Positions 7,256 through 23,781 of a stretch of 32,637 nt of DNA are shown piece by piece. A program made the translations under genes and the position numbers. The stretch's first letter is position 1. Every line of letters begins with the position of its first letter. The notes under the pieces are model-generated. The model made no database searches and was not told the DNA's origin. It worked only from the letters and a program-made list of their open reading frames with translations. Source of the DNA: Candidatus Stoquefichus massiliensis AP9 (lineage in GTDB: Bacteria; Bacillota_I; Bacilli_A; Erysipelotrichales; Coprobacillaceae); assembly GCF_000455285.1 (NCBI RefSeq), contig NZ_HG005285.1, positions 1 to 32,637 on the forward strand. The letters run 5' to 3'.

Positions 7256-7535
7256 GAGTATTCCTTCCTCTCCAACAATCATTAGAACGTTCATCACCAT
7301 TATTTTTTATAACAACATGAACATAACTCCCCCTTTTATAATCAGGATCTTTTTTTAATATATCAGATAATACTGATAAACGTTTATGACCATCAATACA
7401 TTGATAATGCTGATTCAATTGAATCACATGAATAGGAAAAGAAAAACCAATTCGAAGAATAGAATCATATAACTCTGTTGTATAACTCTGATATTCAAAA
7501 TCAATATCTTTTATATTTAACTTCACCAAACGCAT
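7251..7535 (-). CDS. Small ParB/sulfiredoxin-fold protein
   Basis: A 94-aa protein. LVKLNIKDIDFEYQSYTTEL is followed by LYDSILRIGFSFPIHVIQLN and YQCIDGHKRLSVL, which matches the ParB N-terminal nucleotide-binding fold; the 'IDGHKRL' box corresponds to the 'GxxRxxA' element. It has no DNA-binding helix-turn-helix and no CTPase C-terminus, so it is not a chromosome-partition ParB. The start follows GAGGTGAT. It is the first gene of the leftward run that continues with the pseudouridine synthase, and their ends overlap. Its function is unknown. Confidence 0.8.
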   Translation of the reverse strand: MRLVKLNIKDIDFEYQSYTTELYDSILRIGFSFPIHVIQLNQHYQCIDGHKRLSVLSDILKKDPDYKRGSYVHVVIKNNGDERSNDCWRGRNTH

Positions 7536-7558
7536 TTATTATCACCTCAAACACCGAT

Positions 7559-7567
7559 ATTATAACA
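7559..7567 (-). promoter_or_regulatory. Extended -10 promoter of leftward run
   Basis: The minus strand reads TGTTATAAT, an extended -10 element, about 24 bases before the ATG of the ParB-like gene. The matching -35 (TTTTCA at 17 bases) is poor, as is usual for extended -10 promoters. Confidence 0.55.
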
Positions 7568-7652
7568 TTAAATAATAGATATGAAAATCCAAATCAAAGA
7601 ATAATATATTTTTCAAGATAGAAAAAGTTTATGATTTTATAATAATTCATGA

Positions 7653-7658
7653 TATAAT
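7653..7658 (+). promoter_or_regulatory. -10 element of RpiR-family gene
   Basis: A perfect TATAAT lies 22 bases before the ATG at 7680 and is followed by AAGGAGGT. The -35 region (TATGAT at 7630-7635, spacer 17) is weak, which suggests the gene may need activation or be expressed at a low level. Confidence 0.5.
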
Positions 7659-7679
7659 ATCAGTTAAGGAGGTCATTAT

Positions 7680-8429
7680 ATGAATATCTTATTAAGTCGT
7701 ATATTAACATATTTAAATGGAACATTATTTCATGATTATAATTATAAGATCTGTACATTTATTATCTTTCATTATTTAGAAATGGAGGATATGAGCGTGG
7801 AAGAATTTTTAAAAAAGGGATGTTTTAAAAAAGAAGAACTTTATGCTTTTATTGCACTTTTAGGATTCAATCAATATGATGAATTTAAAGAAACATTAGT
7901 GAATCATCATCAAACACGTTTAAATCAAATAAGAGTGAGAATGCTTGGTGCTGATAGTCGTGATTTTATTGAAAAAATGGACAAAGACTGTACTGATGAA
8001 GAAATGGAAAAAATCATTAGTGATATTTGTCAGAAATTATATAAAGCCAAAAGAATTGTTGTTTTTGGTGCATTATATCCTATCTCAATAGCAATTGAAT
8101 TACAGACTGATATGATTACTTTTGGTAAACCTTTTATTCAATATCATAGTTATGACCCTATTGTTATGGATGAAAAAGATGTTGCTATTGTGATTAGTGC
8201 AACAGGACGTTATCTTGAAGGATTCAAGAAATCTAAAGAAGATGTTCATATAGAAAAAGCACAACAAATACTCATTACTCAAAACAAGAAATATTTAAAG
8301 ACTGAAACAACTCCAAATTGCAAAGTGATTTATGTTCCAGGCAAATTTGATAGTATTAACTTTAATTATCAGATTATGACAATCTGTGATTTAATTCGTT
8401 TACATTATTTTCAACAATATTATTTATAG
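7680..8429 (+). CDS. MurR/RpiR family regulator with SIS domain
   Basis: A 249-aa putative transcriptional regulator. The N-terminal 75 residues are helical (YKICTFIIFHYLEMEDMSVE, EFLKKGCFKKEELYAFIALL, GFNQYDEF) and fit the RpiR helix-turn-helix layout, in which the last helix is the 'LGFxxYxEF' recognition segment. Residues about 105-235 form a SIS sugar-phosphate-binding domain: KRIVVFGALYPISIAIELQT, then DVAIVISATGRYLE, the usual 'isxSG' position. Such proteins sense a phosphosugar and control nearby sugar genes, yet no sugar gene lies in this window. The start follows AAGGAGGT. It is convergent with the transporter operon and shares its terminator. Confidence 0.8.
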   Translation: MNILLSRILTYLNGTLFHDYNYKICTFIIFHYLEMEDMSVEEFLKKGCFKKEELYAFIALLGFNQYDEFKETLVNHHQTRLNQIRVRMLGADSRDFIEKMDKDCTDEEMEKIISDICQKLYKAKRIVVFGALYPISIAIELQTDMITFGKPFIQYHSYDPIVMDEKDVAIVISATGRYLEGFKKSKEDVHIEKAQQILITQNKKYLKTETTPNCKVIYVPGKFDSINFNYQIMTICDLIRLHYFQQYYL

Positions 8430-8431
8430 AA

Positions 8432-8456
8432 AAAAGTACGCATTTTGCGTACTTTT
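8432..8456. terminator. Bidirectional terminator
   Basis: An 11-bp stem (AAAAGTACGCA / TGCGTACTTTT, loop of three T) has A-rich and T-rich flanks on both sides. It lies between the convergent ends of the RpiR-family gene and the ABC ATPase gene and can serve both. Confidence 0.88.
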
Positions 8457-9243
8457 ATTGTTTTAAAAACAAACGGTCGTTATAGTCATGAGTAGATGTT
8501 GAATAAAGATGAATAAGTTCATCAACAGTCATTTTCTTTCTTTCTTCACCTTCTACCATCGCAATGATTTGTCCATCTTTCATTATCATTGTTTTATTTC
8601 CATATTTTAAAGCATCTTCCATATTATGCGTAATCATTAAAGTTGTAATATGATGTTCCTCAACAATTTTAGAAGTCATTTCTAAAACTTTTTGAGATGT
8701 TTTAGGATCTAATGCTGCAGTATGTTCATCCAACAATAGAAGTTCAGGAGTCACATAGGTAGCCATTAAAAGCGTAAGAGCTTGTCTTTGTCCTCCAGAC
8801 AATGTTCCTACCTTGGTATTTAAACGCTCTTCTAAACCTAAATCTAATTCTTTTAATGCTTGTTTCATCTCGTTTTTTTGTTTATGAGAAAATAAAGAAA
8901 GTCGAAAATGCTGACCTCTTTGAGAAGCAAGAGATAAATTCTCTTCAATTGTCATTGAAGGAGCAGTTCCTTTTAGTGGATCTTGAAAAAGTCTACCAAT
9001 AAAACGTGAACGTTTATATTCAGGAATACCTGTTAAATTTTGTCCATTTAAAATTACTTGTCCTTGAGTTGGTTGAATCGCTCCTGATATCGTTTGAAAT
9101 AAAGTAGATTTACCTGCTCCATTACTTCCAATAATCGTCACAAAATCGCCCTTATCTAATTTAAGATCAATATGTGAAAGAGCAATCTTTTCATTAACTG
9201 TTCCTTCATGAAAAATAACAGAAATATCTTGAAGTTCTAGCAT
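8455..9243 (-). CDS. trpZ: ABC transporter ATP-binding protein (TrpZ-like)
   Basis: The cytoplasmic ATPase that powers the importer encoded by this three-gene operon. The 262-aa protein has Walker A GSNGAGKST (39-47), Q-loop Gln87, signature LSGGQ (148-152), Walker B LLLLDE (168-173) and H-loop His206. Its nearest families are ATPases of the ABC_sub_bind/BMP-like importers. The ATG overlaps the stop of the permease gene (ATGCTAG), a sign of translational coupling. The gene ends in the bidirectional terminator. The gene name rests on operon make-up plus the Trp-type T-box and is less sure than the family. Confidence 0.88.
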   Translation of the reverse strand: MLELQDISVIFHEGTVNEKIALSHIDLKLDKGDFVTIIGSNGAGKSTLFQTISGAIQPTQGQVILNGQNLTGIPEYKRSRFIGRLFQDPLKGTAPSMTIEENLSLASQRGQHFRLSLFSHKQKNEMKQALKELDLGLEERLNTKVGTLSGGQRQALTLLMATYVTPELLLLDEHTAALDPKTSQKVLEMTSKIVEEHHITTLMITHNMEDALKYGNKTMIMKDGQIIAMVEGEERKKMTVDELIHLYSTSTHDYNDRLFLKQ

Positions 9244-10106
9244 TTTGATCGTCTCCTTTTTCTTTTCATATTTGTAGAAGCAATAGCAATAACAACTAAT
9301 ATAGCAGATAATAATTTTAAGTCACCTGAAGGTAAACCTAATTGCAAAGCAATTGTTAAAATAGCACGATAGAAAACCGCTCCAAAAACGACAGCCATTA
9401 ATTGAAAACCAATTTTATCTTTCTTAATAATTGTCATCCCAACAATAATACTAGCTAAACCAATAACCATCATACCTGTTCCACTTGCAATATCAGAAAA
9501 AGCCTGATGCTGAGCAAAGACCGCTCCACCCAATGAAACAAAACCATTAGCTAATGCAAGACCTAAGATTTTCATTTTATCAGTATCAATAGAACTTGCT
9601 CTTACCATATCCTCATTATCACCACATGCTCTTAAAGCCAAACCTAATTGTGTTCTTAAAAAATAATGAAGGAAGAAACATACAATAAGAATAATCACTA
9701 TAATCACAATCAGCTTATCATAAGGAGCAAGAAATACCAATGGTGAAAAAACTGTTGGAAATTCAAATAAAGAAATATTAGGAGAATCTCCCATAATTCT
9801 TAAATTAATAGAATATAATGCTGTCATTGTTAAAATACCAGAAAGTAATGGCATAATATTCAACTTTGTAATTAAAACACCTGTTACAACCCCAGCAAGA
9901 CATCCAATCACAAATGCTAAAAACAATCCAAGATACGGCATCGAATGAACTGTGAACATAGCACTAACTGCACATCCAAGCGTAAAACTTCCATCAACTG
10001 TTAAATCAGGAAGATTCAATACCTTATAACTTATATAGAGTCCTAGGGACATAATTGCAAATATGCCCCCTAACTCCAACGCACCTAAAACAACCGTTAA
10101 ATTCAT
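9237..10106 (-). CDS. trpY: ABC transporter permease (TrpY-like)
   Basis: The integral membrane channel of the importer, 289 aa, with about eight or nine hydrophobic segments. It starts MNLTVVLGALELGGIFAIMS and has LNLPDLTVDGSFTLGCAV, the conserved 'pDltvdGsf.lGaa' motif of permeases paired with ABC_sub_bind lipoproteins. It ends in a basic tail (NMKRKRRRSKC). The start follows AGGAGTTGTTATT. It is 11 bases downstream of the substrate-binding gene stop and overlaps the ATPase start by seven bases, so the three proteins are made together. Confidence 0.88.
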   Translation of the reverse strand: MNLTVVLGALELGGIFAIMSLGLYISYKVLNLPDLTVDGSFTLGCAVSAMFTVHSMPYLGLFLAFVIGCLAGVVTGVLITKLNIMPLLSGILTMTALYSINLRIMGDSPNISLFEFPTVFSPLVFLAPYDKLIVIIVIILIVCFFLHYFLRTQLGLALRACGDNEDMVRASSIDTDKMKILGLALANGFVSLGGAVFAQHQAFSDIASGTGMMVIGLASIIVGMTIIKKDKIGFQLMAVVFGAVFYRAILTIALQLGLPSGDLKLLSAILVVIAIASTNMKRKRRRSKC

Positions 10107-10117
10107 AATAACAACTC

Positions 10118-11113
10118 CTATTTCATCATTGATAACGCTTTATCATTTTGAATACTCTCTGGTAACTTTATACCTAATTGACTTAAAACACTTTCATTCA
10201 CATAAATATTTAAATTTTCCTTAAAAACTTTTACAGGAATATCTTCTACTTTTGTTCCCTTTAAAACCTTATCAACCATCTGTGCAGTTTCCTTACCTAA
10301 ATCCTCATAATTAATACCAACACTTAAGAAACCACCATCCTGAACCATAGAATCAGCTCCAACATATAAAGGGACTTTTGCTTTAGCACAAGCAGGTCCA
10401 ACAACATTCATAGCACTTGCTACAGTGTTATCATTAGGAGCAAATACAGCATCACATTTACTTGTCAAAACATTAATAGCACTCTGAACTTCATTAATAC
10501 CAGTAACAGTTGCCTCAACAATTTCAATACCCTTTTCCTTAGCAAATTCTTTTGCTTTATTAATATTCGTTACTGAATTTGCTTCACCCTTATTATAAAT
10601 CACACCCAATTTCTTTAAATCGGGATTCACCTCAAGAGCTCTCTGTAAAATCAATTCAACTTGAATCTCATCACTTGTCCCTGTAATATTCTTATCAGGT
10701 TTCTCCAAATTCGTCATTAACTTCGCTCCTACAGGATCACTAACAGCTGCAAAAACAACTGGTGTTGTACTTGCTAAATTTGCTGCTGCTTGAGCAACAG
10801 GCGTTGCTATAGCCATAACAACATCAGGATTTTGACCTTTAAAATCCTGAATAATACTTGCTGCTGTATTCGTATCACCTTGAGCATTCTTAAATGTATA
10901 TTCAACATTCTTACCCTCTTCATACCCTAAAGACTTCATCTCAGCATCAAACGCACTCTTAATTGTATTCAACGAAGTATGTTCAACTAACTGAATAATC
11001 GCAACTTTCTTCATGGCATCACCAGATTCCTGATTACTACTACCACACCCTACTAATAAACTTCCAACTAATCCAACTGCTAATAAACCTTTTAATAATT
11101 TTAAATTCTTCAT
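10118..11113 (-). CDS. trpX: ABC substrate-binding lipoprotein (TrpX-like)
   Basis: An extracytoplasmic, membrane-anchored receptor that captures the substrate for the permease. The 331-aa protein begins MKNLKLLKGLLAVGLVGSLL with lipobox LVGC and lipidated Cys23. An upstream in-frame start is rejected because AAGGAGAG lies just before this ATG and because it gives a clean signal peptide. The body (KKVAIIQLVEHTSLNTIKSA, then GYEEGKNVEY, NPDVVMAIATPVAQAAAN, VVFAAVSDPVGAKL) matches the ABC_sub_bind (PF04392-type) family that includes TrpX of streptococci. Tryptophan is the most likely substrate given the T-box leader with a TGG reading; other aromatic compounds remain possible. Confidence 0.88.
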   Translation of the reverse strand: MKNLKLLKGLLAVGLVGSLLVGCGSSNQESGDAMKKVAIIQLVEHTSLNTIKSAFDAEMKSLGYEEGKNVEYTFKNAQGDTNTAASIIQDFKGQNPDVVMAIATPVAQAAANLASTTPVVFAAVSDPVGAKLMTNLEKPDKNITGTSDEIQVELILQRALEVNPDLKKLGVIYNKGEANSVTNINKAKEFAKEKGIEIVEATVTGINEVQSAINVLTSKCDAVFAPNDNTVASAMNVVGPACAKAKVPLYVGADSMVQDGGFLSVGINYEDLGKETAQMVDKVLKGTKVEDIPVKVFKENLNIYVNESVLSQLGIKLPESIQNDKALSMMK

Positions 11114-11215
11114 TTTCTTTCTCTCCTTATATTTGATTTGTTTTTTATTCAATACATAAGAAGCTACACCATCGTCTCATTTTCATCTTTGTTTCCCCCT
11201 CTTGTTAGCATATAA

Positions 11216-11470
11216 ACAAAAAACACCTGTCCTAGAAAAGGACAGATGTATATATCTGCGGTGCCACCTTTATTGGTTACAAAATAACCCACTCATCAAA
11301 ATGCTAACACATTTCTGCTTTATAACGTAAGCTCACGTCGCCGGATACTCGTTACCTTTCCCCATTGCCCTCGTAGGTCCATTTACTTAACTGCCACTAT
11401 CTAGCTTCCACCATCCTAGACTCTCTTGAAGTACATCTTTAAGCTTTATCTCCCACTCATTGGTTTCGTT
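11216..11470 (-). promoter_or_regulatory. T-box riboswitch, likely tryptophan-responsive
   Basis: The leader of the ABC operon binds uncharged tRNA to allow transcription. On the minus strand, GGTGGCACCGCA at 11268-11257 is the T-box sequence that pairs with the tRNA acceptor end. It forms an antiterminator with CCTTT downstream, or else gives way to the terminator ACATCTGTCC / GGACAGGTGT (11249-11223) followed by six T. Stem I is recognisable: AGAGAG, then TCTAGGATGGTGGAAGCTAG (GGTGGAAG distal element), then a TACTT/AAGTA stem. The specifier-loop side is AAATGGACC, best read as TGG (Trp) followed by a purine. ATG (Met) is the alternative. Confidence 0.9.
11223..11249 (-). terminator. T-box intrinsic terminator
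   Basis: A 10-bp stem with one G-U pair and a seven-base loop is followed on the minus strand by TTTTTTG. Part of its left arm (ATCTGTCC) is also needed for the antiterminator, which is the expected mutually exclusive arrangement. Confidence 0.85.
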
Positions 11471-12733: not shown

Positions 12734-13780
12734 TCAAATCATTGTTTTTAGCTCTGAAAGACTATCAGAGTATTGCAATGCACTTTCTCTAGAAATTCTA
12801 CCTTGTCTAACCAATCCAGCCAAGCTCATATTTAAGGACTGCATTCCTAGAGCAGACCCAGTCTGAATAACACTATTGATTTGATGCCCCTTATTTTCTC
12901 TAATTAAATTTTCAATAGCAGGTGTCGCCATCATAACTTCCAAGGCAGCAACACGTGATTGCCCATCCATTGTAGGTATAAGTTGTTGTGTAACAACTGC
13001 ATTGAGTACACCAGACAATTGTGTTCTAATTTGATCTTGCTTATGTGGTGGAAAAACATCTATAATACGATCTATCGTTTTAGCAGCTCCTATTGTATGC
13101 AATGTTGAAAAAACCAAATGACCTGTTTCTGCTAGAGTCATAACAGCTTGTATTGTTTCATAATCACGCATTTCTCCTACTAAAATAACATCAGGATCTT
13201 CACGCATCGCACTTCTTAATGCAGTATCAAATGAATCAACATCAAAATTAATTTCTCTCTGATGAATTAATGCTAAATTTTGTTTATAAACATACTCGAT
13301 TGGATCTTCAATTGTTAAAATATGACATTTTCGATTGTTATTGATTTCACTAATCATGGCTGCTAATGTTGTCGATTTACCCGAACCAGTTGGTCCTGTT
13401 AACAAAACCAAACCTCTAGGATCTTCAGTAAGTTTTTTAAGAATTGAAGGTAGCCCTAGTTCAGTTAATGAACGAATACGTTCATAGATAACCCTAAGCG
13501 CAGCACATAGATGTCCTCTTTCTTTATATACATTAACTCTGTAACGATTTTCTCCTTCTACATATACCAGATCAATATCATGTCCATTTTTTAAATCATT
13601 CAGTTGATTTTCATTAAGCATTGATTCAATCATAATAACAATATCCTCTTCATTATAATTATGTTCATATGGTATTAAAACGCCATTATTTCTAACCATA
13701 ATATTTGTCAAACCACCTAAATGCACATCAGAAAAACCTCTCTCTCTTGCAAAATGCAAGATATTATCCAAAGCTAGCAT
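12734..13780 (-). CDS. pilT: Pilus retraction ATPase PilT
   Basis: A hexameric ATPase that powers pilus disassembly at the inner face of the membrane. The 348-aa length is typical. Walker A GPTGSGKST is at 129-137, the Asp box is around 158-161 (IEDP), Walker B DPDVILVGE at 196-204 and the His box GHLVFSTLHT at 220-229. The PilT-specific AIENLIRE element is at 288-295 and separates it from PilB. The start follows AGGAGGGG, and the gene begins 12 bases after pilB. Its presence argues for a true retractable pilus rather than only a competence or secretion pseudopilus. Confidence 0.95.
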   Translation of the reverse strand: MLALDNILHFARERGFSDVHLGGLTNIMVRNNGVLIPYEHNYNEEDIVIMIESMLNENQLNDLKNGHDIDLVYVEGENRYRVNVYKERGHLCAALRVIYERIRSLTELGLPSILKKLTEDPRGLVLLTGPTGSGKSTTLAAMISEINNNRKCHILTIEDPIEYVYKQNLALIHQREINFDVDSFDTALRSAMREDPDVILVGEMRDYETIQAVMTLAETGHLVFSTLHTIGAAKTIDRIIDVFPPHKQDQIRTQLSGVLNAVVTQQLIPTMDGQSRVAALEVMMATPAIENLIRENKGHQINSVIQTGSALGMQSLNMSLAGLVRQGRISRESALQYSDSLSELKTMI

Positions 13781-13792
13781 AGAATTCCCCTC

Positions 13793-15466
13793 CTATCTTT
13801 CATAATATGATATCTTTAATAACTCTTCAATTGTTGTCTTACCTTCCTCAACTAACCTCAATGTTTCTTGAAACAAAGAACTATATTCTTGATTTAATTT
13901 CACATATTCGTATATATCATCAATATCTGCTCTGTCAGTAATCATTTTCTTTATTTTTTTATCAATCAATACCATCTCATGAACTGCAATACGTCCTTTA
14001 TATCCAGTATTGTGACAAGCTGGACAGCCAACACTTCTATAAACATAAGGTAAATTCTTTCCAGCAATTCTCTTATCCTCATCAGTCGCTTCAACCTTAT
14101 TAGCACAATGTGGACAAACTTTTTTTACTAAACGCTGAGCAACAATACCCACAACACTATTTGCAACCATATATGGTTCAATGCCCATATCAATTAATCT
14201 CACAATTGTACTTACAGCATCATTTGTATGGAGTGTAGATACAACCAAATGTCCTGTAATAGCAGCTCTAACAGAAATAGAAGCTGTTTCAGCATCACGT
14301 GTTTCACCAACCATAATAATATCTGGATCCTGTCTTAAAATAGCTCGTAATCCACTTTCAAAAGTTAAACCTGCAATATTATTAACCTGCATCTGATTAA
14401 TACGTTCAAGATTCTTTTCTACTGGATCCTCAATAGTCAAAATATTAACATTACGTCTTGCAAGTTTCTCCATAATCATATATAAAGTCGTTGTTTTACC
14501 AGAACCAGTTGGGCCAGTCACATAGATAATTCCATTGGGATTTTCCATCATTTGATTCATTTTCGTAAAATTAATATCAGTCATCCCAAAATGATTAGCA
14601 TAATCGATTGGTGTATTAGAATTTAAAAATCTCATAACAATTTTTTCACCATATACAGTAGGAACAATAGAAACACGTAAATTCATACGTTCTCCATTAA
14701 TTGTAACAACGAAATGTCCATCCTGAGGTATTCTACGTTCAGAAATATCAAGATTTGCTAAAATCTTTGTCCTTACAACCAAAGGGCTATGAATACTTTT
14801 TTGCAGTTTCATAGATTCAATTAACATTCCATCAATTCTCATTCTTACTAAAGTTTCTTTTTCAAAAGGTTCAATATGAATATCTGAAGCATTGCTACTA
14901 AAACCTTTAGTCAATAAAGAATTTAATAATTTAACAATTGGAGAATCATCAGATTCACTATCAAATATCTCCTCATCAATAGCCTCAAACTGAGTCGTAT
15001 CTCTATTAGCAATCTCAGCAGCAGACTTTGCCTTGATTTCAGAATAATTATAATCAATAGCATTCTCTATAGCATCATGCACTGCAAGACCAATAGAAAT
15101 ATTCATTCCAGTTACTAATCTAATATCCTCTAATGCATAGAAATCCATAGGATCACTAGAAACAACAGTCAACGTATTACCATCGATTTTAATCCCAATA
15201 ACATTATATTTTTCAGCTAATTGTTGTGGTATCTTACTTACAGCATCTATTGATATAGATACTGTAGATAAATCTATCATAGGATAATCTAGTTTAGCAC
15301 TCAGTGCACGTAAAGTTTGTTCCTCATTTACAAATCCTAAATCAATTAAATGCTGTCCTAATCTCTTAGATTTATCTTTTTTTTGTACATCTAATGCTTC
15401 TTGTAACTGCTCCTCTGTTATATATCCATATTCTTTTAACACTTCACCAATTGGTACACGTTTCAT
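13793..15466 (-). CDS. pilB: Pilus extension ATPase PilB/GspE
   Basis: The cytoplasmic ATPase that drives pilin assembly. The 557-aa protein starts MKRVPIGEVLKEYGYITEEQ, chosen over an upstream frame start because TAAGGAGGTATC precedes it. An N-terminal MshEN/GspE-type domain spans 1-140; such domains bind cyclic-di-GMP in some relatives, so this is worth noting beside the cyclic-di-GMP enzyme gene. Walker A GPTGSGKTT is at 318-326, Walker B DPDIIMVGE at 380-388 and the His box GHLVVSTLHT at 405-414. A zinc site is formed by Cys451, Cys454, Cys481 and Cys484. It lies 16 bases downstream of the repeat-bearing minor pilin gene. Confidence 0.95.
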   Translation of the reverse strand: MKRVPIGEVLKEYGYITEEQLQEALDVQKKDKSKRLGQHLIDLGFVNEEQTLRALSAKLDYPMIDLSTVSISIDAVSKIPQQLAEKYNVIGIKIDGNTLTVVSSDPMDFYALEDIRLVTGMNISIGLAVHDAIENAIDYNYSEIKAKSAAEIANRDTTQFEAIDEEIFDSESDDSPIVKLLNSLLTKGFSSNASDIHIEPFEKETLVRMRIDGMLIESMKLQKSIHSPLVVRTKILANLDISERRIPQDGHFVVTINGERMNLRVSIVPTVYGEKIVMRFLNSNTPIDYANHFGMTDINFTKMNQMMENPNGIIYVTGPTGSGKTTTLYMIMEKLARRNVNILTIEDPVEKNLERINQMQVNNIAGLTFESGLRAILRQDPDIIMVGETRDAETASISVRAAITGHLVVSTLHTNDAVSTIVRLIDMGIEPYMVANSVVGIVAQRLVKKVCPHCANKVEATDEDKRIAGKNLPYVYRSVGCPACHNTGYKGRIAVHEMVLIDKKIKKMITDRADIDDIYEYVKLNQEYSSLFQETLRLVEEGKTTIEELLKISYYER

Positions 15467-15482
15467 ATGATACCTCCTTATA

Positions 15483-17027
15483 TTAATCTGATAGATCAAA
15501 AAAATATTTATTATTTCCACCCCATGAATTTGCCAATGGATTACTAATCATAGAATTAACTATTGCTTCTTTCCGCCATCCATCGATATCTGTATATGAA
15601 GATTGTGATTGTTTATAATTAATATATTCTTGTATAGTTTCCTCAGTTAAAATATTATGCAAAAAATGAAAATAAACAAATCTCTCTTTATTTTGGATGC
15701 CTTTATTTCCTATTACATAATCATTCATTTCATAAGAACTATTAGAATCATAGTCGTTTTCTAGCAATTTCCACCCACTAAATCTAGATGATCCAGGTGC
15801 ATTGCCATCCCCATCAAAGACTTTCAGGTAAACCTCATAATAATTAGTTCCTACAAGTATAGCATTTCCATTATCATCTTTAAGTTCCTCTCCATAAGCA
15901 TCCTTTTTTACAATTCTCTTCTCTATTTTAATATAATTACCAACTTGATATTTTTTCGTACTATCATAACCATTTAGTATAACAGAAGAATTTTTTTGAG
16001 GATCTGATGCTACAACATCATTTGGTAATTTAACCATAACAGTGTCTTTTGTACCAGAATATGCATTTTCATACTTTTTATCAATAGAATCAAGATATTC
16101 TTTTGTAGTTTTTTTCCATCCATTTGATTCATATTGCCCAAGATTAGGGTTTGGTGTACATTCTTTAGAATTACGATTATACCACGAATATTTATATTCA
16201 TAGTATTCATTTTCATAAATAATTACATCACCTTCAGTATAAAACGAATCAGTTTGAAATTCTTTTGATAACTTTATCCAATTCCCTTTATCAGGATATG
16301 CATTACCATCATTGTTTGCAGCAGAATACCACCAACTATTATTATAAAAAACATAATCACCAGGAGAATAATGCCTTCCATATGTAAAATAACCTCTGTT
16401 ATTTCTCATATTTATTTTTTTTATTCTATCAGCAACAGTTCTATCACCGCTAAGTTCAGAATTTCCAACAGTTATTTTATCTTTTTTATAATATATTTTT
16501 AAATCATCTTTACCAACAAGCAAAGCCTCAGCGAAACTTTTAGACTGCACTGCACTAACATTTAATAATTCAAGTGTATCATGAGTCGTATATAAGTCCT
16601 CTTTATCATCATACATTATAAAAGTTAAGTCTAATCTATTTTTATCTTCATATGCTTTTGAAGTCATTTTAAAAGAGTGGTTATTATAAAACGAATCATT
16701 AGAAAATAAATTCAAATCAGTAGAAGCCAAATCAGTTTCTTCATACTGATGTAGTTTTCCATCAACAACACTAAAACTACGCCAAGTTCCATCTGGTTTT
16801 GTTTCTTGCACTCTCACTTCAGTAGCATATAACAATTCACTACGAACATAACTAGCAATTTCATCAATAGTTCTTTTATCTAAATCCGTACTTGATGTCT
16901 CATAAAAATATTTAAATCCAGAAATCATTATACTTCCAAGAACGGCTAAAAGTGCGGAAAAAATAGCAATTGAAACAATAATTTCAACTAATGTAAAACC
17001 ATTTTTTTTATTTTTATCTTTGTGCAT
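15483..17027 (-). CDS. Large minor pilin with chitin-binding-like repeats
   Basis: A 514-aa prepilin. MHKDKNKKNG precedes FTLVEIIVSIAIFSALLAVL, with cleavage after Gly10 and Glu at +5. The N-terminal part resembles PilW/GspJ-type minor pilins. Residues about 215-486 hold four diverged copies of a pattern Y..GdyV......Y......P......W. Copy 1 is near 218-253 (YSPGDYVFYNNSWWY ... NWIKL), copy 2 near 262-307 (FYTEGDVIIYENEYYE ... NGWKK), copy 3 near 354-422 (YQVGNYIKI ... YYEVYLKVFDG ... SGWKLL), and copy 4 near 426-486 (YEMNDYVI ... DGWRKE). This spacing of aromatic residues is like CBM5/12 (ChtBD3) carbohydrate-binding modules. A glycan-binding role at the pilus tip is inferred. Confidence 0.85.
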   Translation of the reverse strand: MHKDKNKKNGFTLVEIIVSIAIFSALLAVLGSIMISGFKYFYETSSTDLDKRTIDEIASYVRSELLYATEVRVQETKPDGTWRSFSVVDGKLHQYEETDLASTDLNLFSNDSFYNNHSFKMTSKAYEDKNRLDLTFIMYDDKEDLYTTHDTLELLNVSAVQSKSFAEALLVGKDDLKIYYKKDKITVGNSELSGDRTVADRIKKINMRNNRGYFTYGRHYSPGDYVFYNNSWWYSAANNDGNAYPDKGNWIKLSKEFQTDSFYTEGDVIIYENEYYEYKYSWYNRNSKECTPNPNLGQYESNGWKKTTKEYLDSIDKKYENAYSGTKDTVMVKLPNDVVASDPQKNSSVILNGYDSTKKYQVGNYIKIEKRIVKKDAYGEELKDDNGNAILVGTNYYEVYLKVFDGDGNAPGSSRFSGWKLLENDYDSNSSYEMNDYVIGNKGIQNKERFVYFHFLHNILTEETIQEYINYKQSQSSYTDIDGWRKEAIVNSMISNPLANSWGGNNKYFFDLSD

Positions 17028-17047: not shown

Positions 17048-18031
17048 TTAATTGGTTTTTTTTGGTATAATATTAATTACAATCTCATCACCATCATTTA
17101 AATAGTTAAAAATACTATAACCTTTTAATCTACCAAATTCAAATGGTTCACCATTAAAAAGTTTATTGCATTGAAGATAATACTCCCCTGATAAATCATT
17201 CCCTGTAGCATAAAAACCAAAGTGATTCTTTATATAATATAATATCTCATCAGTAAATCCATTTGGTAAATTAAAGTTATACAAAACCAACTCAGGTTCT
17301 ATATGCCCAAGACTTCCATTTTTCTTAAATATAATTTCAACATTTTTCACAGTACCATCATTTATATCATATGGCTCAATATATCCATAAATATTATAAG
17401 GTGCCCCGTCTATCTTATCTATCCTATACCAGTTTATTGTAGCATCCTCAAATGTAACACCTCCATAGTGATTTCCACCTAGTATTGAATCAATATTAAT
17501 GCTAACATTAGTACTATTCTTACTAGGTAATTTAACATGTGATTGGATATAATCAATTTGTCGAGAAGACTGTGTTCCTGACAAAACAGCATTTTTATGA
17601 GGTGATAGTTTGTCTGGCTCATTAATGCATAATGTATCAGAATTAACATCAATATTATTGTTATTTTTTTTGGTAGGATCTTTTAGCAAATAAAAATTTG
17701 CATCTTCATTATAAGTACGCTGAACTTCACCTATACTAAATAATGATAATGACAATTCATCTTTATCATTATATTTTTTAGTAACTATCTTCATTTTTCC
17801 TTGTACAGATAGTCCATCTTTAAATGTCATTGTTGATTCCTTTTCTATTGTTGATTCATCGTTTTGAATCTTTGCAAAGATTTCATTACTTGTATTTTTT
17901 ATTAAAGCAGATTCACTCATATAATGAATAATTGATGTAAATGCTAATCCAACCATACTCAATAATATTGCAATAATAGCAACAGTCACAATAGATTCAA
18001 TTAATGCAAAACCTTTATTATTCGATTTCAT
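17048..18031 (-). CDS. Minor pilin-like protein
   Basis: A 327-aa prepilin: MKSNNKG then FALIESIVTVAIIAILLSMV, with cleavage after Gly7 and Glu at +5. The remaining 290 residues are soluble and show no recognised domain; they contain NHYGGVTFEDATINWYRIDK and a region naming a possible beta-rich fold. The start overlaps the end of the preceding gene by 14 bases (stop TAA within ATGAAATCGAATAA), so the two are co-translated. Likely one of the GspI/GspJ-like minor pilins that prime the pilus. Confidence 0.85.
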   Translation of the reverse strand: MKSNNKGFALIESIVTVAIIAILLSMVGLAFTSIIHYMSESALIKNTSNEIFAKIQNDESTIEKESTMTFKDGLSVQGKMKIVTKKYNDKDELSLSLFSIGEVQRTYNEDANFYLLKDPTKKNNNNIDVNSDTLCINEPDKLSPHKNAVLSGTQSSRQIDYIQSHVKLPSKNSTNVSINIDSILGGNHYGGVTFEDATINWYRIDKIDGAPYNIYGYIEPYDINDGTVKNVEIIFKKNGSLGHIEPELVLYNFNLPNGFTDEILYYIKNHFGFYATGNDLSGEYYLQCNKLFNGEPFEFGRLKGYSIFNYLNDGDEIVINIIPKKTN

Positions 18032-18467
18032 AGACTGTCTCTCCTTTATGAGAATATTGAAGATTTTGCCACTGACCTGTTGTAGAGTCTTGATTCATAG
18101 TTAATTGAATTTCTTGTGTTCTTCCATAATTAGTTGCTGTTGCAACAATAACAATTACTTTATCTGTTTCATTTAATGTAATTGTTGCTTTTCTCTCTTC
18201 ACATGTATCATCTGTTAGTTGAATATCATTAAATGCAATAGTGGGTTTTGTTTCAACTGGAATAAATTCTGAATTTCCAGCAGTTATTTGAAGTGAAATT
18301 GTATCAACTATAGACTTGGCAGTCAAATATGCCTGTCTTTCCTGATTATTTCTAATTGAACGATTATGATATGAACTTGCGATAGCAAAACAAGCACCTA
18401 GTAAGACTGTCAGAACCATCCCAACAACAACTGCCATCACAATACTAGACCCCTTTTCATTATTCAT
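18018..18467 (-). CDS. PilX/GspK-like minor pilin
   Basis: A 149-aa protein: MNNEKG then SSIVMAVVVGMVLTVLLGAC. The prepilin-type leader ends at Gly6, but position +5 is Met, not Glu. Lack of Glu5 is a known trait of GspK-type pilins at the tip, and the PilX family starts in a similar way. The rest (HNRSIRNNQERQAYLTAKSI, then about 90 residues) matches the usual helix-then-sheet shape and is far shorter than GspK. It is placed directly before two minor pilins with Glu5, the usual cluster of minor pilin genes. Confidence 0.75.
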   Translation of the reverse strand: MNNEKGSSIVMAVVVGMVLTVLLGACFAIASSYHNRSIRNNQERQAYLTAKSIVDTISLQITAGNSEFIPVETKPTIAFNDIQLTDDTCEERKATITLNETDKVIVIVATATNYGRTQEIQLTMNQDSTTGQWQNLQYSHKGETVYEIE

Positions 18468-18487: not shown

Positions 18488-19093
18488 CTACTGTTTTTCA
18501 ATCATATAAATGACAAAAGAAATTGTCACTGTATTCGATTGAGCATTTGATAACTGATAAGAAAGATTTCCTATTTCTAATCCTTCTTGTTCATTTATTG
18601 AACCCATGAGTTTTTTTAATTTAGTAAGATCCCCATTAAGTGTCATATTAATTGTCGATTGTTTAATAACTGAGCTTGTTGCTGAATTATCTGTTGATGG
18701 GTTTGCTGTTCCATCAGTAGCAGTTGTATCAGTAGATTGTAACGATGCACCAGGCACTTCACCAATGGATAAATTCTTAGGTCGAAAGCCACTTGCCAAA
18801 ACTTTTGTTGTAATAAGTTTATCTATATCATCATTACTTAAAACTTGACTATACTGACCTGCTATTTCATTATAACTATCTTCTAATATTTTGTATTGAC
18901 TTGGTGCATCCTCATAGTCTTTAAGTTGTTGTTTTATAGTTGTAAGCTGTGTTTGTTTTTCTTCATATTCAGCATGAACTTGAGAATTTTTTTCCAATGC
19001 CGGATTTAATAATAAAAACCAACCTGCAACTAATATAAGGAAACAAATTAAGACATATATTAAAGTTTTTTCTCTTTTTGTTAATGACTCCAT
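18488..19093 (-). CDS. pilO: PilO-like pilus assembly protein
   Basis: A 201-aa bitopic membrane protein. A short cytoplasmic N-terminus and one membrane helix (LIYVLICFLILVAGWFLLLN, about 11-30) are followed by a coiled coil (about 35-85) and a ferredoxin-like domain interrupted by a low-complexity Thr/Ser/Asp stretch (120-140). This is the standard PilO/GspM plan. It sits next to the PilM-PilN fusion, its normal partner; together they form the inner-membrane alignment complex that links pilin entry to the ATPases. Sequence similarity is weak, so the call rests mostly on layout and position. Confidence 0.8.
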   Translation of the reverse strand: MESLTKREKTLIYVLICFLILVAGWFLLLNPALEKNSQVHAEYEEKQTQLTTIKQQLKDYEDAPSQYKILEDSYNEIAGQYSQVLSNDDIDKLITTKVLASGFRPKNLSIGEVPGASLQSTDTTATDGTANPSTDNSATSSVIKQSTINMTLNGDLTKLKKLMGSINEQEGLEIGNLSYQLSNAQSNTVTISFVIYMIEKQ

Positions 19094-19108
19094 CTTTATT
19101 TATCTCCT

Positions 19109-20644
19109 TTACTTAAGAATTATTGTTATTGTTGATTTATATGAACTTGTTTCTACTGTGTTGGTAGCAGGCAATCCTGTTAATGGATCTATTTCTCCTG
19201 TTTGAGTTGTAGAAGATGTTGTTGATTCGTTATATCCAGAGTAATTAACTGACATAAAATCTTCTTGTTTTTTTAAGTTTTTAACACATTTTTCAATGAG
19301 TTGAACATTTGAAGAAGATATTGACAATGAAATTGTATGTGTTTCACGAGTATAACTAATTAAATCTAAAGTCATACCACTTAATAATGATTTTTGTATA
19401 TTTGTTATATGTTCTGCTTTTATTGATGGTGTTCCTTGAATTTGATCATTTAATTGTTTAATTGAATTTAATACATTTTGAAATGATGATAATTTATCAT
19501 ATGCTGATGTATCCGTTGCAGATATTGCTAAATTATATTTTTCTATTTCTGCTTTAATATCACTTATTTTATTCTGTGTAGACATTGTATTCCATGATAA
19601 GAATCCAAAAGGTATCAAAAACAACAAAAGAATAACAACTGGTGGAATACACAATTTAATGACACTCTCATATTTAGGTGGTTCATCATTACGATTATAC
19701 GCTTGTAACAGATCCAATTCCTTATTTTTTAAACCAGAACCTACCTTTTTATAAAACATTGCTATTGGATAAACATAGTGAGAAAGTTTAAAAGGCTCAT
19801 TATCTAAATCCTTGACAGTATAAATTGCCTTTGATCCAGGTAAACCTCTAGCATCAACACGTAACTGATCATGAATATTTTGACACAAAGAAACTTCCTC
19901 TTTATCATCTAAACCAAACACAAAAACATCACTTATTTTATATGAACTATCGCTTCTGTTACTTGATTGGATCATATGAGAAATACTATTAATGACTTCG
20001 TTTTCAAATTCAGGTGTTCCCTTATTAGCCATAATACGAGTTCTATATGTTAATGCATATTCATCATTATCAAATAAAGTAGAAATCAAGTTATTGCCAT
20101 CTAATTGAGATAATATATATGTTTTATCTATAAATCCTGGTAAGAAATGAATAAAACGAATTAAAGCATTCGTTGCAAAATCAATACTTAAAACAGCAAT
20201 ACCACAATCATTGAACAATTGTAAGTACATATCAATAAGTTTTCTTTCAACACCTAAAGCAAGTATTTTACTTGCTCCTTTTGATTGACCATCTTCATCT
20301 AAATATGCAAAATCATAAATCATATCCTCTGTATTTTGTGCCAATGGAGATAATTCATCTTTTACAAATTGATAAATTTCTTTCATTTTCATTCTAGGAA
20401 TCACAACATTTTTAGCGAGAATCTGTCCACTATCAATAACCAAATGAACTTCAAGAATACCCTCTTCTTTTAATATTTTAATCTGCTCTTTAACAGCCTC
20501 ATCATTAATAATAACCCCATTAATCATAGCTCCCATAGGGAATGGAAGGCGTTGATATTGTTCAACACGCAAAACATCTCTACGTGCTTCTGCAGTTACC
20601 ATAACTAATTGTTCACTAGATAAATAAACAACTGTACCTTTCAT
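19109..20644 (-). CDS. pilM: PilM-PilN fusion protein
   Basis: A 511-aa protein with two parts. Residues 1-300 form an actin-like PilM domain (HLVIDSGQILAKNVVIPRMK, then LALGVERKLIDMYLQLFNDC and GIAVLSIDFATNALI). ELDLLQAY at 309-316 resembles the 'inLLP' peptide that in other species lies at the N-terminus of PilN and docks into PilM. A membrane helix (330-351), a coiled coil and a periplasm-type domain follow, as in PilN. Thus two proteins that normally bind each other are here one chain. It starts after GGAGGAGATT and is followed directly by the PilO-like gene. Confidence 0.85.
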   Translation of the reverse strand: MKGTVVYLSSEQLVMVTAEARRDVLRVEQYQRLPFPMGAMINGVIINDEAVKEQIKILKEEGILEVHLVIDSGQILAKNVVIPRMKMKEIYQFVKDELSPLAQNTEDMIYDFAYLDEDGQSKGASKILALGVERKLIDMYLQLFNDCGIAVLSIDFATNALIRFIHFLPGFIDKTYILSQLDGNNLISTLFDNDEYALTYRTRIMANKGTPEFENEVINSISHMIQSSNRSDSSYKISDVFVFGLDDKEEVSLCQNIHDQLRVDARGLPGSKAIYTVKDLDNEPFKLSHYVYPIAMFYKKVGSGLKNKELDLLQAYNRNDEPPKYESVIKLCIPPVVILLLFLIPFGFLSWNTMSTQNKISDIKAEIEKYNLAISATDTSAYDKLSSFQNVLNSIKQLNDQIQGTPSIKAEHITNIQKSLLSGMTLDLISYTRETHTISLSISSSNVQLIEKCVKNLKKQEDFMSVNYSGYNESTTSSTTQTGEIDPLTGLPATNTVETSSYKSTITIILK

Positions 20645-20655
20645 ATAATCTCCTC

Positions 20656-21849
20656 CTATCCTTTCCCACTAACATTACCATACATACTATAAATAGGTAA
20701 AATAACAGAAACAACAACCATACAAATAAGAATACCTAAAATAATAATCATAACTGGTTGTAATAAAGTTACTAATTTCTCAATAGCCATCTCAGATTCA
20801 AAATCAAAATCATCCGCTATTCTCTGTAACATATCATCTAATTTACCACTTTCCTCACCAACATAAATCGCATTTGGTAATTTTGAATCAAAGCCATCAA
20901 CTTCACTAATTGCCGTTGATAAATTCGTCCCATCCCTCACAGAATGAACAACACTATCAAATTGACTCTCAATATATGCATTATTAATCGTTGTCTTTGC
21001 TAAATTCAAAGAATTAATCATTGCAACACCACTAGAATATAAAGATGACATACTTCTTGCAAACCTAGCAGTATATATAATTTTCAATAAACTTCCAACT
21101 TTAGGAATGCTCAATTTAAATTCATCAAATCTTAATCTTACTTTCTCAACTCGTAATAAATAAGATATTCCAGCTATCATTATTAAAATAGCAATTAATA
21201 TCCAATGTCCAGAATTGATAATCGCATCACTAATCGCAAACATAATCTGTGTAATCAAAGGCATATCCATACCTTCAAACATTGTCAAGAAATTTGGTAA
21301 TATCATTGTAAACACAAGCATAACAACACCAACCGTTACAACAATTAAAATAATTGGATAAAACATAGCACTCTTTACTTTTGCATTAATTTTACTTTCT
21401 TTATCATATTGGTCTGCTAATTTTAAAAGTGTTCTATCCATCATCCCTGTTGATTCACTAGAACGAATCATATTAATCATTAAATTAGGAAATGCCCCAC
21501 CTTGAGAAGCTAAAGCATGAGATAAAGTAAACCCCTGTTGAAGTTTAATATAAATATCCTTATAAATCTTTTCAATCTTAGGATTATTTTCTCTCTTTGT
21601 CATAATATTCATTGCCATGATTAAACTAATACCAGAAGAAACCATCGTTCCTACTTGTCTACACAACTCAGACAATTCTTTTAATTTAATTTTATAATGA
21701 TTTCCCTCTTCTTCAATCTCTTTACACTTCAAAAGATATAAATTATCAGAACGCAACAAAGCAACAAGTTCATCTCGTGAATTCGCCTCTACCTTGCCAT
21801 GTGTTTTCTTAGAATTTATATCTTTTGCAGTATATCTAAACGTTGCCAT
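20656..21849 (-). CDS. pilC: Pilus platform protein PilC/GspF
   Basis: A polytopic inner-membrane platform that transmits ATPase motion to the growing pilus. The 397-aa length is normal. Two homologous T2SSF domains are visible: LCRQVGTMVSSGISLIMAMN near 62-81 and ARFARSMSSLYSSGVAMINS near 262-281. Each is followed by hydrophobic segments, and the C-terminal one reads PVMIIILGILICMVVVSVIL. The N-terminus (FRYTAKDINSKKTHGKVEAN) is the standard GspF start. It lies between pilD and the PilM-PilN fusion with short gaps. Confidence 0.95.
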   Translation of the reverse strand: MATFRYTAKDINSKKTHGKVEANSRDELVALLRSDNLYLLKCKEIEEEGNHYKIKLKELSELCRQVGTMVSSGISLIMAMNIMTKRENNPKIEKIYKDIYIKLQQGFTLSHALASQGGAFPNLMINMIRSSESTGMMDRTLLKLADQYDKESKINAKVKSAMFYPIILIVVTVGVVMLVFTMILPNFLTMFEGMDMPLITQIMFAISDAIINSGHWILIAILIMIAGISYLLRVEKVRLRFDEFKLSIPKVGSLLKIIYTARFARSMSSLYSSGVAMINSLNLAKTTINNAYIESQFDSVVHSVRDGTNLSTAISEVDGFDSKLPNAIYVGEESGKLDDMLQRIADDFDFESEMAIEKLVTLLQPVMIIILGILICMVVVSVILPIYSMYGNVSGKG

Positions 21850-21868
21850 AAACGTTCAACTCCTCTTT

Positions 21869-22636
21869 TTAAGGTCCAAATATTCCTAAATACAATTGTA
21901 ACAGATTTTCTCCATATAATAAAGCAACAAACATACCAAAACAAATATAAGGTCCAAAAGCAATATGATCTTTTCTATCTACCTTATGACTTAACATTAA
22001 ATATCCAGCATAACATCCAGCAATCACAACCGCAATAAACATACCAACCAATAAATGAGCCCATCCAAGCATCAAACCACATACAGCTATCAACTTAATA
22101 TCGCCACCACCAAAACAATCAGGTATAACATAATTCATTATGTACAAAGGTAAACTTACTGCAAAAAAACCAATCAATCTGTCAATAACACTTATATCAA
22201 TAAAAGGATAAGAAATAACAGTCACAATCAATACTGTAATCACTAAAGAATTAGGAATCGTCATCGTGTCTAAATCAATCATACTAATCGCGACTAATAT
22301 CATTACAAAAGCAAAAGATATCAATGTCATCCAATCTATTCCATAACGATAAAAACATAACATTCCTAATAATCCACCTAATACTTCCAATAAAGTATCT
22401 CTGACAGGAATCTTTGTTTTACAATAACGACATTTTCCACCAAGAGTTATATAACTTAATATAGGTATTAAATCAATAGCATGTAACTGATGCTCACATG
22501 TAGGACAAAAACTTCTCCCCTTTGCAACACTTATACCCAAAGGCAAACGATAGATCACAACATTTACAAAACTCGCAATACAAGCACCAACCACAAACAT
22601 ATATACATATAAAAATATAAATATTGGTTCCATCAT
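21869..22636 (-). CDS. pilD: Prepilin peptidase/N-methyltransferase PilD
   Basis: A polytopic aspartic protease that removes the leader of all the prepilins here and methylates the new N-terminus. The 255-aa protein has an N-terminal methyltransferase domain with two CxxC pairs (Cys44/Cys47 and Cys69/Cys72). The catalytic aspartates are Asp121 in SMIDLDTMTIPN and Asp179 in FGGGDIK. The start MMEPIFIF follows a GAGAGG-type site. It is separated from the main pilin gene by a hairpin that should lower its expression relative to pilin. Confidence 0.94.
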   Translation of the reverse strand: MMEPIFIFLYVYMFVVGACIASFVNVVIYRLPLGISVAKGRSFCPTCEHQLHAIDLIPILSYITLGGKCRYCKTKIPVRDTLLEVLGGLLGMLCFYRYGIDWMTLISFAFVMILVAISMIDLDTMTIPNSLVITVLIVTVISYPFIDISVIDRLIGFFAVSLPLYIMNYVIPDCFGGGDIKLIAVCGLMLGWAHLLVGMFIAVVIAGCYAGYLMLSHKVDRKDHIAFGPYICFGMFVALLYGENLLQLYLGIFGP

Positions 22637-22708: not shown

Positions 22709-23131
22709 CTAACTGCTTTTATTATTTGTTATAGTCATTTTTTCATTAGGATCTATTTTAACTGTCTTATCAGCGAATTCAACAATAATTTCTTTAATAT
22801 TTCCTTTAGAATCTAGTGTAGCTTTGATACCTGTTACTGCTGGTTTCCCTCCAACACTATTTATTGCAGCCTCAGGAGCAGTCCAAACACCACTTACAAT
22901 ATTAGTAGTATCTTTATTAATAAATGCTGTACTTGCCTCTTTCTGAGCAACAATCATTGCACCTCTTGCCTGAGCTTGATATTTTGCATCATCAGCTTCA
23001 TTTAAATAATTTAAAACAGAAGGTACAGCTACAGCTAATAGTACAGCCAAAATAACAACAACTACAATAATTTCAATTAAAGTAAAACCTTTTTTATTTT
23101 TCTTTAATTCTCTTAATTTTTTGATATTCAT
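22709..23131 (-). CDS. pilA: Major type IV pilin candidate
   Basis: A 140-aa prepilin. The leader MNIKKLRELKKNKKG is followed by FTLIEIIVVVVILAVLLAVA, with cleavage after Gly15 and Glu at +5. The mature protein is about 125 residues, typical of a main pilin. There is a helix to about residue 70 and then a small beta domain (TGIKATLDSKGNIKEIIVEF), with no Cys pair. The start follows GGGAGGATATT. It has its own strong promoter and a downstream hairpin, which fits high expression. Which of the two promoter-end pilins is the main subunit is inferred. Confidence 0.88.
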   Translation of the reverse strand: MNIKKLRELKKNKKGFTLIEIIVVVVILAVLLAVAVPSVLNYLNEADDAKYQAQARGAMIVAQKEASTAFINKDTTNIVSGVWTAPEAAINSVGGKPAVTGIKATLDSKGNIKEIIVEFADKTVKIDPNEKMTITNNKSS

Positions 23132-23157
23132 TTCAATATCCTCCCTTTCATAGATAC

Positions 23158-23186
23158 ATTATATCTTAAAAGAATCAGTTACGCAA
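23158..23186 (-). promoter_or_regulatory. Promoter of the main pilin/pilus operon
   Basis: On the minus strand TTGCGT (23186-23181) and a perfect TATAAT (23163-23158) are separated by 17 bases. The start codon is about 27 bases further on. It lies downstream of the terminator of the preceding pilin gene, so the operon has its own start. Confidence 0.8.
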
Positions 23187-23193
23187 GAAAATG

Positions 23194-23224
23194 AAAAAAA
23201 GTCTAATTTAATTTATGACTTTTT
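23194..23224 (-). terminator. Terminator of the first pilin gene
   Basis: AAAAAGTC pairs with GACTTTTT around a 13-base AT-rich loop and is followed by more T on the minus strand. It separates the pilin gene at 23.3-23.8 kb from the pilus operon promoter. Confidence 0.7.
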
Positions 23225-23277
23225 CTATAAAAATTAATAACCTGTGACAACGTTGTGATGTTTAAAAAAATAAATTT

Positions 23278-23781
23278 TTATTGATTCACAAAAATGAATG
23301 GATAAAATTTAGCATCATATTGTTTTGAAACATCAACAATCTCATTTTCTTTATAAGTAATATATCGACCATCACCAAATTGATTAGTATCTTCATCATA
23401 GACACCAAAAATAAAATAATAATTTTCTGGTATTTTGTTTATAGTTATTAACGAGTCACTACTTGATAAATTATTACCATCAATTGTCATACCAGTAATA
23501 CAAATTGCTGACAAATTTGCAATCTCTGAAAAATCAGTTCTTTCTATGATATTTTCTACATCTGCACTACTCAATGACTTATCTTCATCTAATGCTAATG
23601 CTTTTGTTATTTCTGTTTTCATAATTGTATATGCACTTCTTGCTTGTGCCATATACTTAGCATCATCTGCTTCATCAAGATATTTCAGTACTGATGGGAC
23701 TGCAACTGCCATAAGTACTGCTAAGATGACTACAACAACTATAATTTCTATTAAAGTAAATCCTTTTTTATTCTTTATCAT
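23278..23781 (-). CDS. Type IV pilin, upstream single gene
   Basis: A 167-aa prepilin: MIKNKKG then FTLIEIIVVVVILAVLMAVA, with cleavage after Gly7 and Glu at +5. Its N-terminal 45 residues match those of the main pilin and of the last pilin of the operon, while the C-terminal domain differs. The start follows GGGGGATT. An imperfect promoter with TATAAT lies about 40 bases upstream, and a terminator follows, so it is probably a separate one-gene unit. It could be an alternative major pilin. Confidence 0.87.
   Translation of the reverse strand: MIKNKKGFTLIEIIVVVVILAVLMAVAVPSVLKYLDEADDAKYMAQARSAYTIMKTEITKALALDEDKSLSSADVENIIERTDFSEIANLSAICITGMTIDGNNLSSSDSLITINKIPENYYFIFGVYDEDTNQFGDGRYITYKENEIVDVSKQYDAKFYPFIFVNQ

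Follow-up and report, generated by a model that had tools for sequence, protein, structure and literature searches.

How the type IV pili of gut Firmicutes select what they bind is largely open. We analysed a 32,637-nt stretch of DNA from Candidatus Stoquefichus massiliensis AP9 (GCF_000455285.1, contig NZ_HG005285.1, positions 1-32,637; the window), in which a pilus operon encodes a minor prepilin ending in four repeated modules. This protein is a concrete candidate adhesin: it accompanies the PilB-PilT locus wherever that was found in the family, and it varies much more than the other parts of the pilus machinery. What, then, are its modules, and what might they do on a pilus? We think it rather probable that the protein is a fast-evolving modular minor pilin, placed at the tip of a complete type IV pilus able to retract, and that it binds a ligand, likely a glycan.

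The modular prepilin and its operon

The modular pilin gene belongs to a minus-strand operon that encodes a complete type IV pilus with both PilB and PilT. The order is two major-type prepilins, PilD, PilC, PilM(N)-like and PilO-like proteins, a PilX/GspK-like small pilin and an I-like minor prepilin, followed by the modular pilin, PilB, PilT and one further prepilin. A prepilin peptidase, platform protein and assembly ATPase are therein co-encoded with the modular pilin (PilD, PilC and PilB, together with PilT). An identical order was found in Faecalibacillus intestinalis (L070, family Coprobacillaceae) and in genome G006 (L109). The features of the operon are as follows.

22709..23781, minus strand: two major-type prepilins (22709-23131, PF07963 E 7e-10; 23278-23781, from sequence)
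18488..22636, minus strand: PilO-like protein, PilM(N)-like protein, PilC platform and PilD prepilin peptidase (PF04612, TIGR01175, PF00482, PF01478/PF06750)
18018..18467, minus strand: pilin-like protein of 149 residues, PilX/GspK-like at the N-terminus by eye, assigned from position and sequence only, with no family match found
17048..18031, minus strand: minor prepilin of 327 residues, I-like by position (PF07963 E 4.7e-6)
15486..17027, minus strand: CBM5/12-like modular minor prepilin, 514 residues (open reading frame, translation, PF07963, orthologues)
16908..17027, minus strand: its residues 1-40, class III signal peptide and hydrophobic alpha-1N (PF07963 E 2e-7)
16482..16907, minus strand: residues 41-182, globular pilin core (VIA-align matches)
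16401..16481, minus strand: residues 183-209, linker (low pLDDT at 184-194, orthologue alignment)
16266..16400, minus strand: residues 210-254, module 1 (Y220, G223-D224, W232-W233, W250)
16104..16265, minus strand: residues 255-308, module 2 (Y263, G266-D267, Y275-Y276, W304)
15756..15977, minus strand: residues 351-424, module 3 (orthologues, model pLDDT about 90, VIA-align Z 5.2)
15486..15755, minus strand: residues 425-514, module 4 (orthologue profile)
13793..15466, minus strand: PilB assembly ATPase with MshEN domain (PF00437, PF05157; start taken at MKRVPIGEVL)
12734..13780, minus strand: PilT retraction ATPase (TIGR01420, 428 bits against a cut-off of 319)

The open reading frame of the modular pilin runs from 17027 down to 15483 on the minus strand, including the stop codon at 15483-15485. 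The N-terminus carries the signal peptide with GFxxxE and the hydrophobic helix of a type IV prepilin, recognised by PF07963 (E 2e-7, 30.7 bits against a cut-off of 21.2) and by TIGR02532 (24.0 bits against 16.3), and cleavage is expected after G10. In an AlphaFold2 model built from a 12-row alignment, with a mean pLDDT of 64.8 and about 75 in modules 1 and 2, residues 13-66 form a helix. The core was matched best by the Streptococcus sanguinis pilin PilB (7ba2; VIA-align Z 12.4 over 130 residues), and second by GspJ-type pseudopilins (EpsJ/XcpJ-type chains) at Z 5.6-6.1; the neighbouring pilins are I-like and K-like by position alone. Minor pilins of the H, I, J and K types are located at the tip, and we infer that the modular pilin most likely belongs to a tip complex of such proteins.

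In the window protein a full pilin core takes up residues 1-182 of the prepilin and the four modules make up its C-terminal part; the linker between the two keeps a TVADxI motif across the aligned orthologues. The preliminary description had the repeats directly after a normal prepilin N-terminus and ended them at residue 486. The N-terminus is present, but the repeats start past a complete core of about 182 residues, and the last module reaches the C-terminus at 514.

Modular pilins with adhesive modules have been described in S. sanguinis, among them the adhesins PilB and PilC, and hundreds of architectures have been counted (PMC8179133, PMC9934059). These two are the nearest characterised proteins to the modular pilin. 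PilB (7b7p/7ba2; PMC8179133) likewise belongs to a monoderm type IV pilus and has a bulky C-terminal part after a complete core; unlike the window protein with its four CBM5/12-like modules, it bears a single protein-binding vWA module. PilC (PMC9934059) is also a minor pilin and likewise bears a module of a carbohydrate-binding kind, but there the modules are Ig-like and ConA-like lectin (beta-sandwich), and CBM5/12 is not described. With a core of the S. sanguinis PilB pilin fold in residues 1-182 and CBM5/12-like modules behind it, the layout is modular, and by that predicted layout the window protein would count as a "modular pilin" in the sense of PMC8179133. No pilin with a set of CBM5/12-like modules was found in the literature searched; the earlier remark that no Firmicute pilin of this layout had been described holds to that extent, but modular adhesive pilins as such are known from S. 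sanguinis. The modular-pilin idea is thereby extended to gut commensals.

PilB matches a c-di-GMP motif (NF053729, 63.1 bits against a cut-off of 38), and a divergent gene for a GGDEF-PAS-GGDEF-EAL protein (24811-27777, plus strand; Pfam) lies just upstream of the operon. Given the c-di-GMP-binding MshEN domain and this neighbour, c-di-GMP control of the pilus is possible. A c-di-GMP riboswitch was sought ahead of the operon and none was found; such control may thus operate without one.

The four modules and their relation to CBM5/12

The motif Y..[G/N][D/N].[V/I] begins at residues 220, 263, 360 and 432, and Y..[GN][DN] occurs five times in residues 183-514, against 1.1 expected from shuffles (P = 0.003). 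A pilin-module profile gave 40.4 and 37.9 bits for window modules 1 and 2, which are themselves included in that profile; shuffled proteins reached 12.7 bits at best. Modules 3 and 4 scored only 10.0 and 8.4 bits, and both hold long insertions. In module 3 a hairpin is inserted at about residues 372-392; module 4, also with a long insertion, is the weakest of the four in the window protein. Where modules 3 and 4 are compact, as in the L003 orthologue, the same profile gave 26.7 and 31.8 bits; those of the sister-family orthologue L032, compact and canonical, reached 48.0 and 41.5 bits as members of the scoring profile. A profile of modules 1 and 2 that contains no module 3 or 4 sequence detects modules 3-4 of the G013 orthologue at E 1.3e-8.

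When 12 homologues are aligned, the columns past the pilin part that vary little or not at all are mostly repeat anchors (G223, D224, W232, P245, W250, Y263, D267, Y275, Y276 and W304 in modules 1-2; Y354, P411, G412, W419, Y432 and D436 in modules 3-4), and the repeats are therefore real and conserved. Motif, profiles and orthologues together bear out the four repeats first noticed after the prepilin start, including their conservation, on which the preliminary description had staked them.

Are the modules related to CBM5/12, as their aromatic spacing had suggested? The window protein has no match to Pfam CBM_5_12 (PF02839) at E <= 10, nor at E <= 0.001, and falls below the Pfam cut-off. Searched singly against Pfam, NCBIfam, PHROGs and PDB it yielded no CBM call, and such calls came from orthologue profiles alone. 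By E-value, CBM_5_12 matches occur in 7 of 12 orthologues (best E 1.1e-4; the Pfam cut-off is 26.2 bits). Against PDB, the orthologue profile found the tandem CBM12s of chitin-oligosaccharide deacetylases at E 1e-4; it also matched All3316 and, more weakly, 2rts and 1ed7 from chitinases. A CBM5/12-only profile built from other genomes of the class gave most orthologues 12-27 bits for module 1 or 2 (maximum 27.3), with at most 6.2 bits from 2200 shuffled sequences. In the reverse search with a profile of pilin modules only, 13 of 14 CBM sequences exceeded 10 bits, the best shuffle reaching 12.7 and the chitin-binding domain of ChiA1 20.5.

The predicted structure points the same way. Model residues 211-307 align with the tandem CBM12s of the chitin-oligosaccharide deacetylase 3wx7 (VIA-align Z 7.0, 87 residues, 2.9 Å), which Foldseek also ranked first (E 2.2e-4), and module 1 aligns with a chitinase CBM5 (4mb3; Z 5.5, 1.7 Å, 41 residues). 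Modelled separately, module 3 has a pLDDT of about 90, and the last 39 residues of the modules 3-4 model are of low confidence; VIA-align placed the 3wx7 domains at the top for this model (Z 5.2, 73 residues), and Foldseek alone gave nothing significant. In these models the small, L-shaped, three-stranded CBM5/12 fold with its core Tyr and Trp is present. The Vibrio deacetylases (3wx7, 4ny2) share with the pilin a tandem arrangement and a common fold at 18% identity over the 87 residues (Z 7.0), but there the CBM12 pair is joined to an enzyme and not to a pilin.

We conclude that all four modules are CBM5/12-like, the last two being elaborated by insertions in the window protein. The assignment is firm for modules 1 and 2, where sequence family, profile comparisons and the predicted fold agree; for modules 3 and 4 it is good in orthologues and is backed, less strongly, by fold. 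The resemblance first read from aromatic spacing is upheld by the Pfam matches in orthologues, by the orthologue profile against PDB and by the predicted fold of modules 1 and 2, and the structure prediction and fold search then suggested did return CBM12 and CBM5 folds (Z 7.0 and Z 5.5).

Distribution and divergence

Homologues occur in 12 of 43 genomes of the family. An adjacent PilB-PilT pair was found in 11 family genomes, and the modular pilin in all 11, counting G005, where it is split across two contigs; in the twelfth it lies at the edge of a contig. Across the wider order, matches at E <= 1e-10 were found in 20 of 315 genomes, some through the pilin part only, and in the class-wide sample the sole match outside the order covers just the N-terminal 66 positions. 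A search for related loci with the window protein alone found none; the alignment as query found one true orthologue, in Faecalibacillus intestinalis, and the other pilins that it retrieved were set aside as unrelated, matching mainly at the N-terminus.

Modules also vary in number and place. In G028 the full-length gene has beside it a module-less copy of the core, 195 residues long, and G027 has an additional, weak module-like stretch (5.9 bits). Neighbouring minor pilins bear one module in G032 (L014, 277-residue ORF; 25.1 bits) and part of a module in G027 (L031, 295-residue ORF; 16.5 bits). Short core-like paralogues without modules lie near PilB in G027 (L108, 6502-7023, minus strand), in G020 (L043) and in G032 (L046), with the modular pilin located elsewhere in these genomes; the G027 paralogue has lost the GFxxxE motif.

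The module-profile matches inspected outside the order have the look of secreted surface proteins, and no pilin was among them. In other families of the class, loci L085, L087, L088, L093 and L098 encode secreted-looking proteins that have an N-terminal signal without prepilin motif and 3-5 CBM5/12-type repeats.

Divergence was measured against G033, the only congener. Identity is 88-94% for PilB, PilT, PilC, PilD and PilMN and 85% for the K-like pilin. Within the modular pilin it is 87.5% in alpha-1N and 63% in the core, falls at about residue 200 and is 22-34% in the modules. Such fast divergence is what an exposed surface that makes contacts would be expected to show. The heads of the I-like pilin (17048-18031) and of the two major pilins (22709-23131 and 23278-23781) also diverge strongly from G033, their first 40 residues being 75-100% identical. 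Fast variation is general among the exposed surfaces of the pilus.

Window modules 1 and 3 are closer to those of other genera than to the congener's, which raised the idea of a module swap by recombination. The core tree unites the two congeners (support 100/100) and the module tree separates them; a forced pairing of the congeners was not rejected (p-AU 0.138), so fast divergence accounts for the module tree equally well and a swap is not demonstrated. From these trees, module exchange is possible. Only tentatively, and with doubt prevailing, do we suggest that Coprobacillaceae-type gut bacteria carry at the pilus tip an exchangeable, fast-diversifying set of CBM5/12-like modules that acts as a variable ligand-specificity cassette; if so, the surface that each species grips, whether host, dietary or microbial, would depend on its module set.

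Possible ligands and roles of the modules

Chitin binding by CBM5 domains relies on two consecutive aromatics, Y-W or W-W, together with a third (PMC8449059). We scored the pair positions 4 and 5 residues past the core aromatic, with three module 1 rows read by eye. Among 11 orthologues, none has an aromatic there in module 1 and two have one in module 2, the window protein (Y280) being one of the two; the exposed pair that follows the core Tyr in chitin-binding CBM5 is thus not conserved in modules 1-2. The chitin-binding CBM5 and CBM12 domains of chitinases (4mb3, 2rts, 1ed7) share the fold and the core Tyr/Trp with the pilin modules, but the modules mostly lack the exposed chitin-binding pair, and chitin specificity is therefore unsupported. 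Since the ChiA1 CBM12 likewise has no such pair, its absence does not exclude binding by the modules. An extra aromatic directly precedes the core aromatic, giving WW/WY or YY, in 22 of 22 module 1-2 sequences against 4 of 14 compared CBMs, a contrast whose Fisher value overstates its significance because the sequences are related. Judged from sequence, this extra aromatic is a candidate binding or packing face.

On our preferred reading, the pilin core would be assembled into the filament, most likely within the tip complex of minor pilins, and the four modules would project outward from it and hold a ligand on some surface, which is probably a glycan. Retraction driven by PilT would then draw the cell toward whatever the modules hold. 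A row of several weak sites would supply avidity, as is usual for CBMs. The ligand is possibly a glycan other than chitin, or a protein. A gut Firmicute pilus that holds a polysaccharide, cellulose, is known from Ruminococcus albus (PMC6916266), but adhesion there is ascribed to pili of the GP25 pilin and no CBM5/12-type pilin is described in that work.

The best-surviving alternative, although unlikely, is that the modules are structural, a CBM5/12-like stack that binds no sugar and serves as a stalk or as a surface on which another tip protein docks. By fold search, CBM5/12-like domains occur also in phage tail fibres and baseplates (8kec, 8fqc, 9rkv) and in a contractile-injection baseplate protein, All3316 of Anabaena, where the fold may be a connector only. 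The missing chitin-binding pair agrees with such a role, and the second conserved aromatic beside the core one could form a packing surface; that aromatic fits a binding platform equally, however, and stalks usually diverge less, whereas here the modules vary far more than the pilin core does.

An adhesin for true chitin or chito-oligosaccharides, such as fungal or dietary chitin in the gut, seems improbable. Its nearest solved relatives are indeed chitin-binding domains of chitin-oligosaccharide deacetylases and chitinases, but the fold does not require chitin binding and the binding-site aromatics (sites from PMC8449059) are not conserved. A search of the genome found no GH18 chitinase and no other CBM_5_12 domain, so that nothing else there indicates chitin use. 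The preliminary suggestion of chitin or mucin as ligand accordingly loses ground, with the CBM5 pair missing from 11 of 11 module 1 and 9 of 11 module 2 sequences and no GH18 chitinase. Binding to the cell's own wall or to other bacteria (peptidoglycan, teichoic or capsular glycans), for wall passage or aggregation, is very improbable: GlcNAc is present in peptidoglycan and monoderm type IV pili do cause aggregation (PMC6916266), but the modules vary strongly between close species whose walls are presumably similar.

Two further observations concern other genes of the contig. A second locus (L107, G000:C2:60000-79000; 7001-10588, minus strand) is an odd competence-like pilus locus with PilT: a ComGB-like platform protein and four small membrane proteins without GFxxxE are followed by a PilT-type ATPase and, further downstream, by a long surface-type protein whose ORF of 1862 residues is truncated by the edge of the L107 stretch. 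In the window, a T-box leader (11235-11469, minus strand; 101.9 bits) precedes an ABC substrate-binding, permease and ATPase set at 8455-11152, and this transporter is probably under tRNA control.
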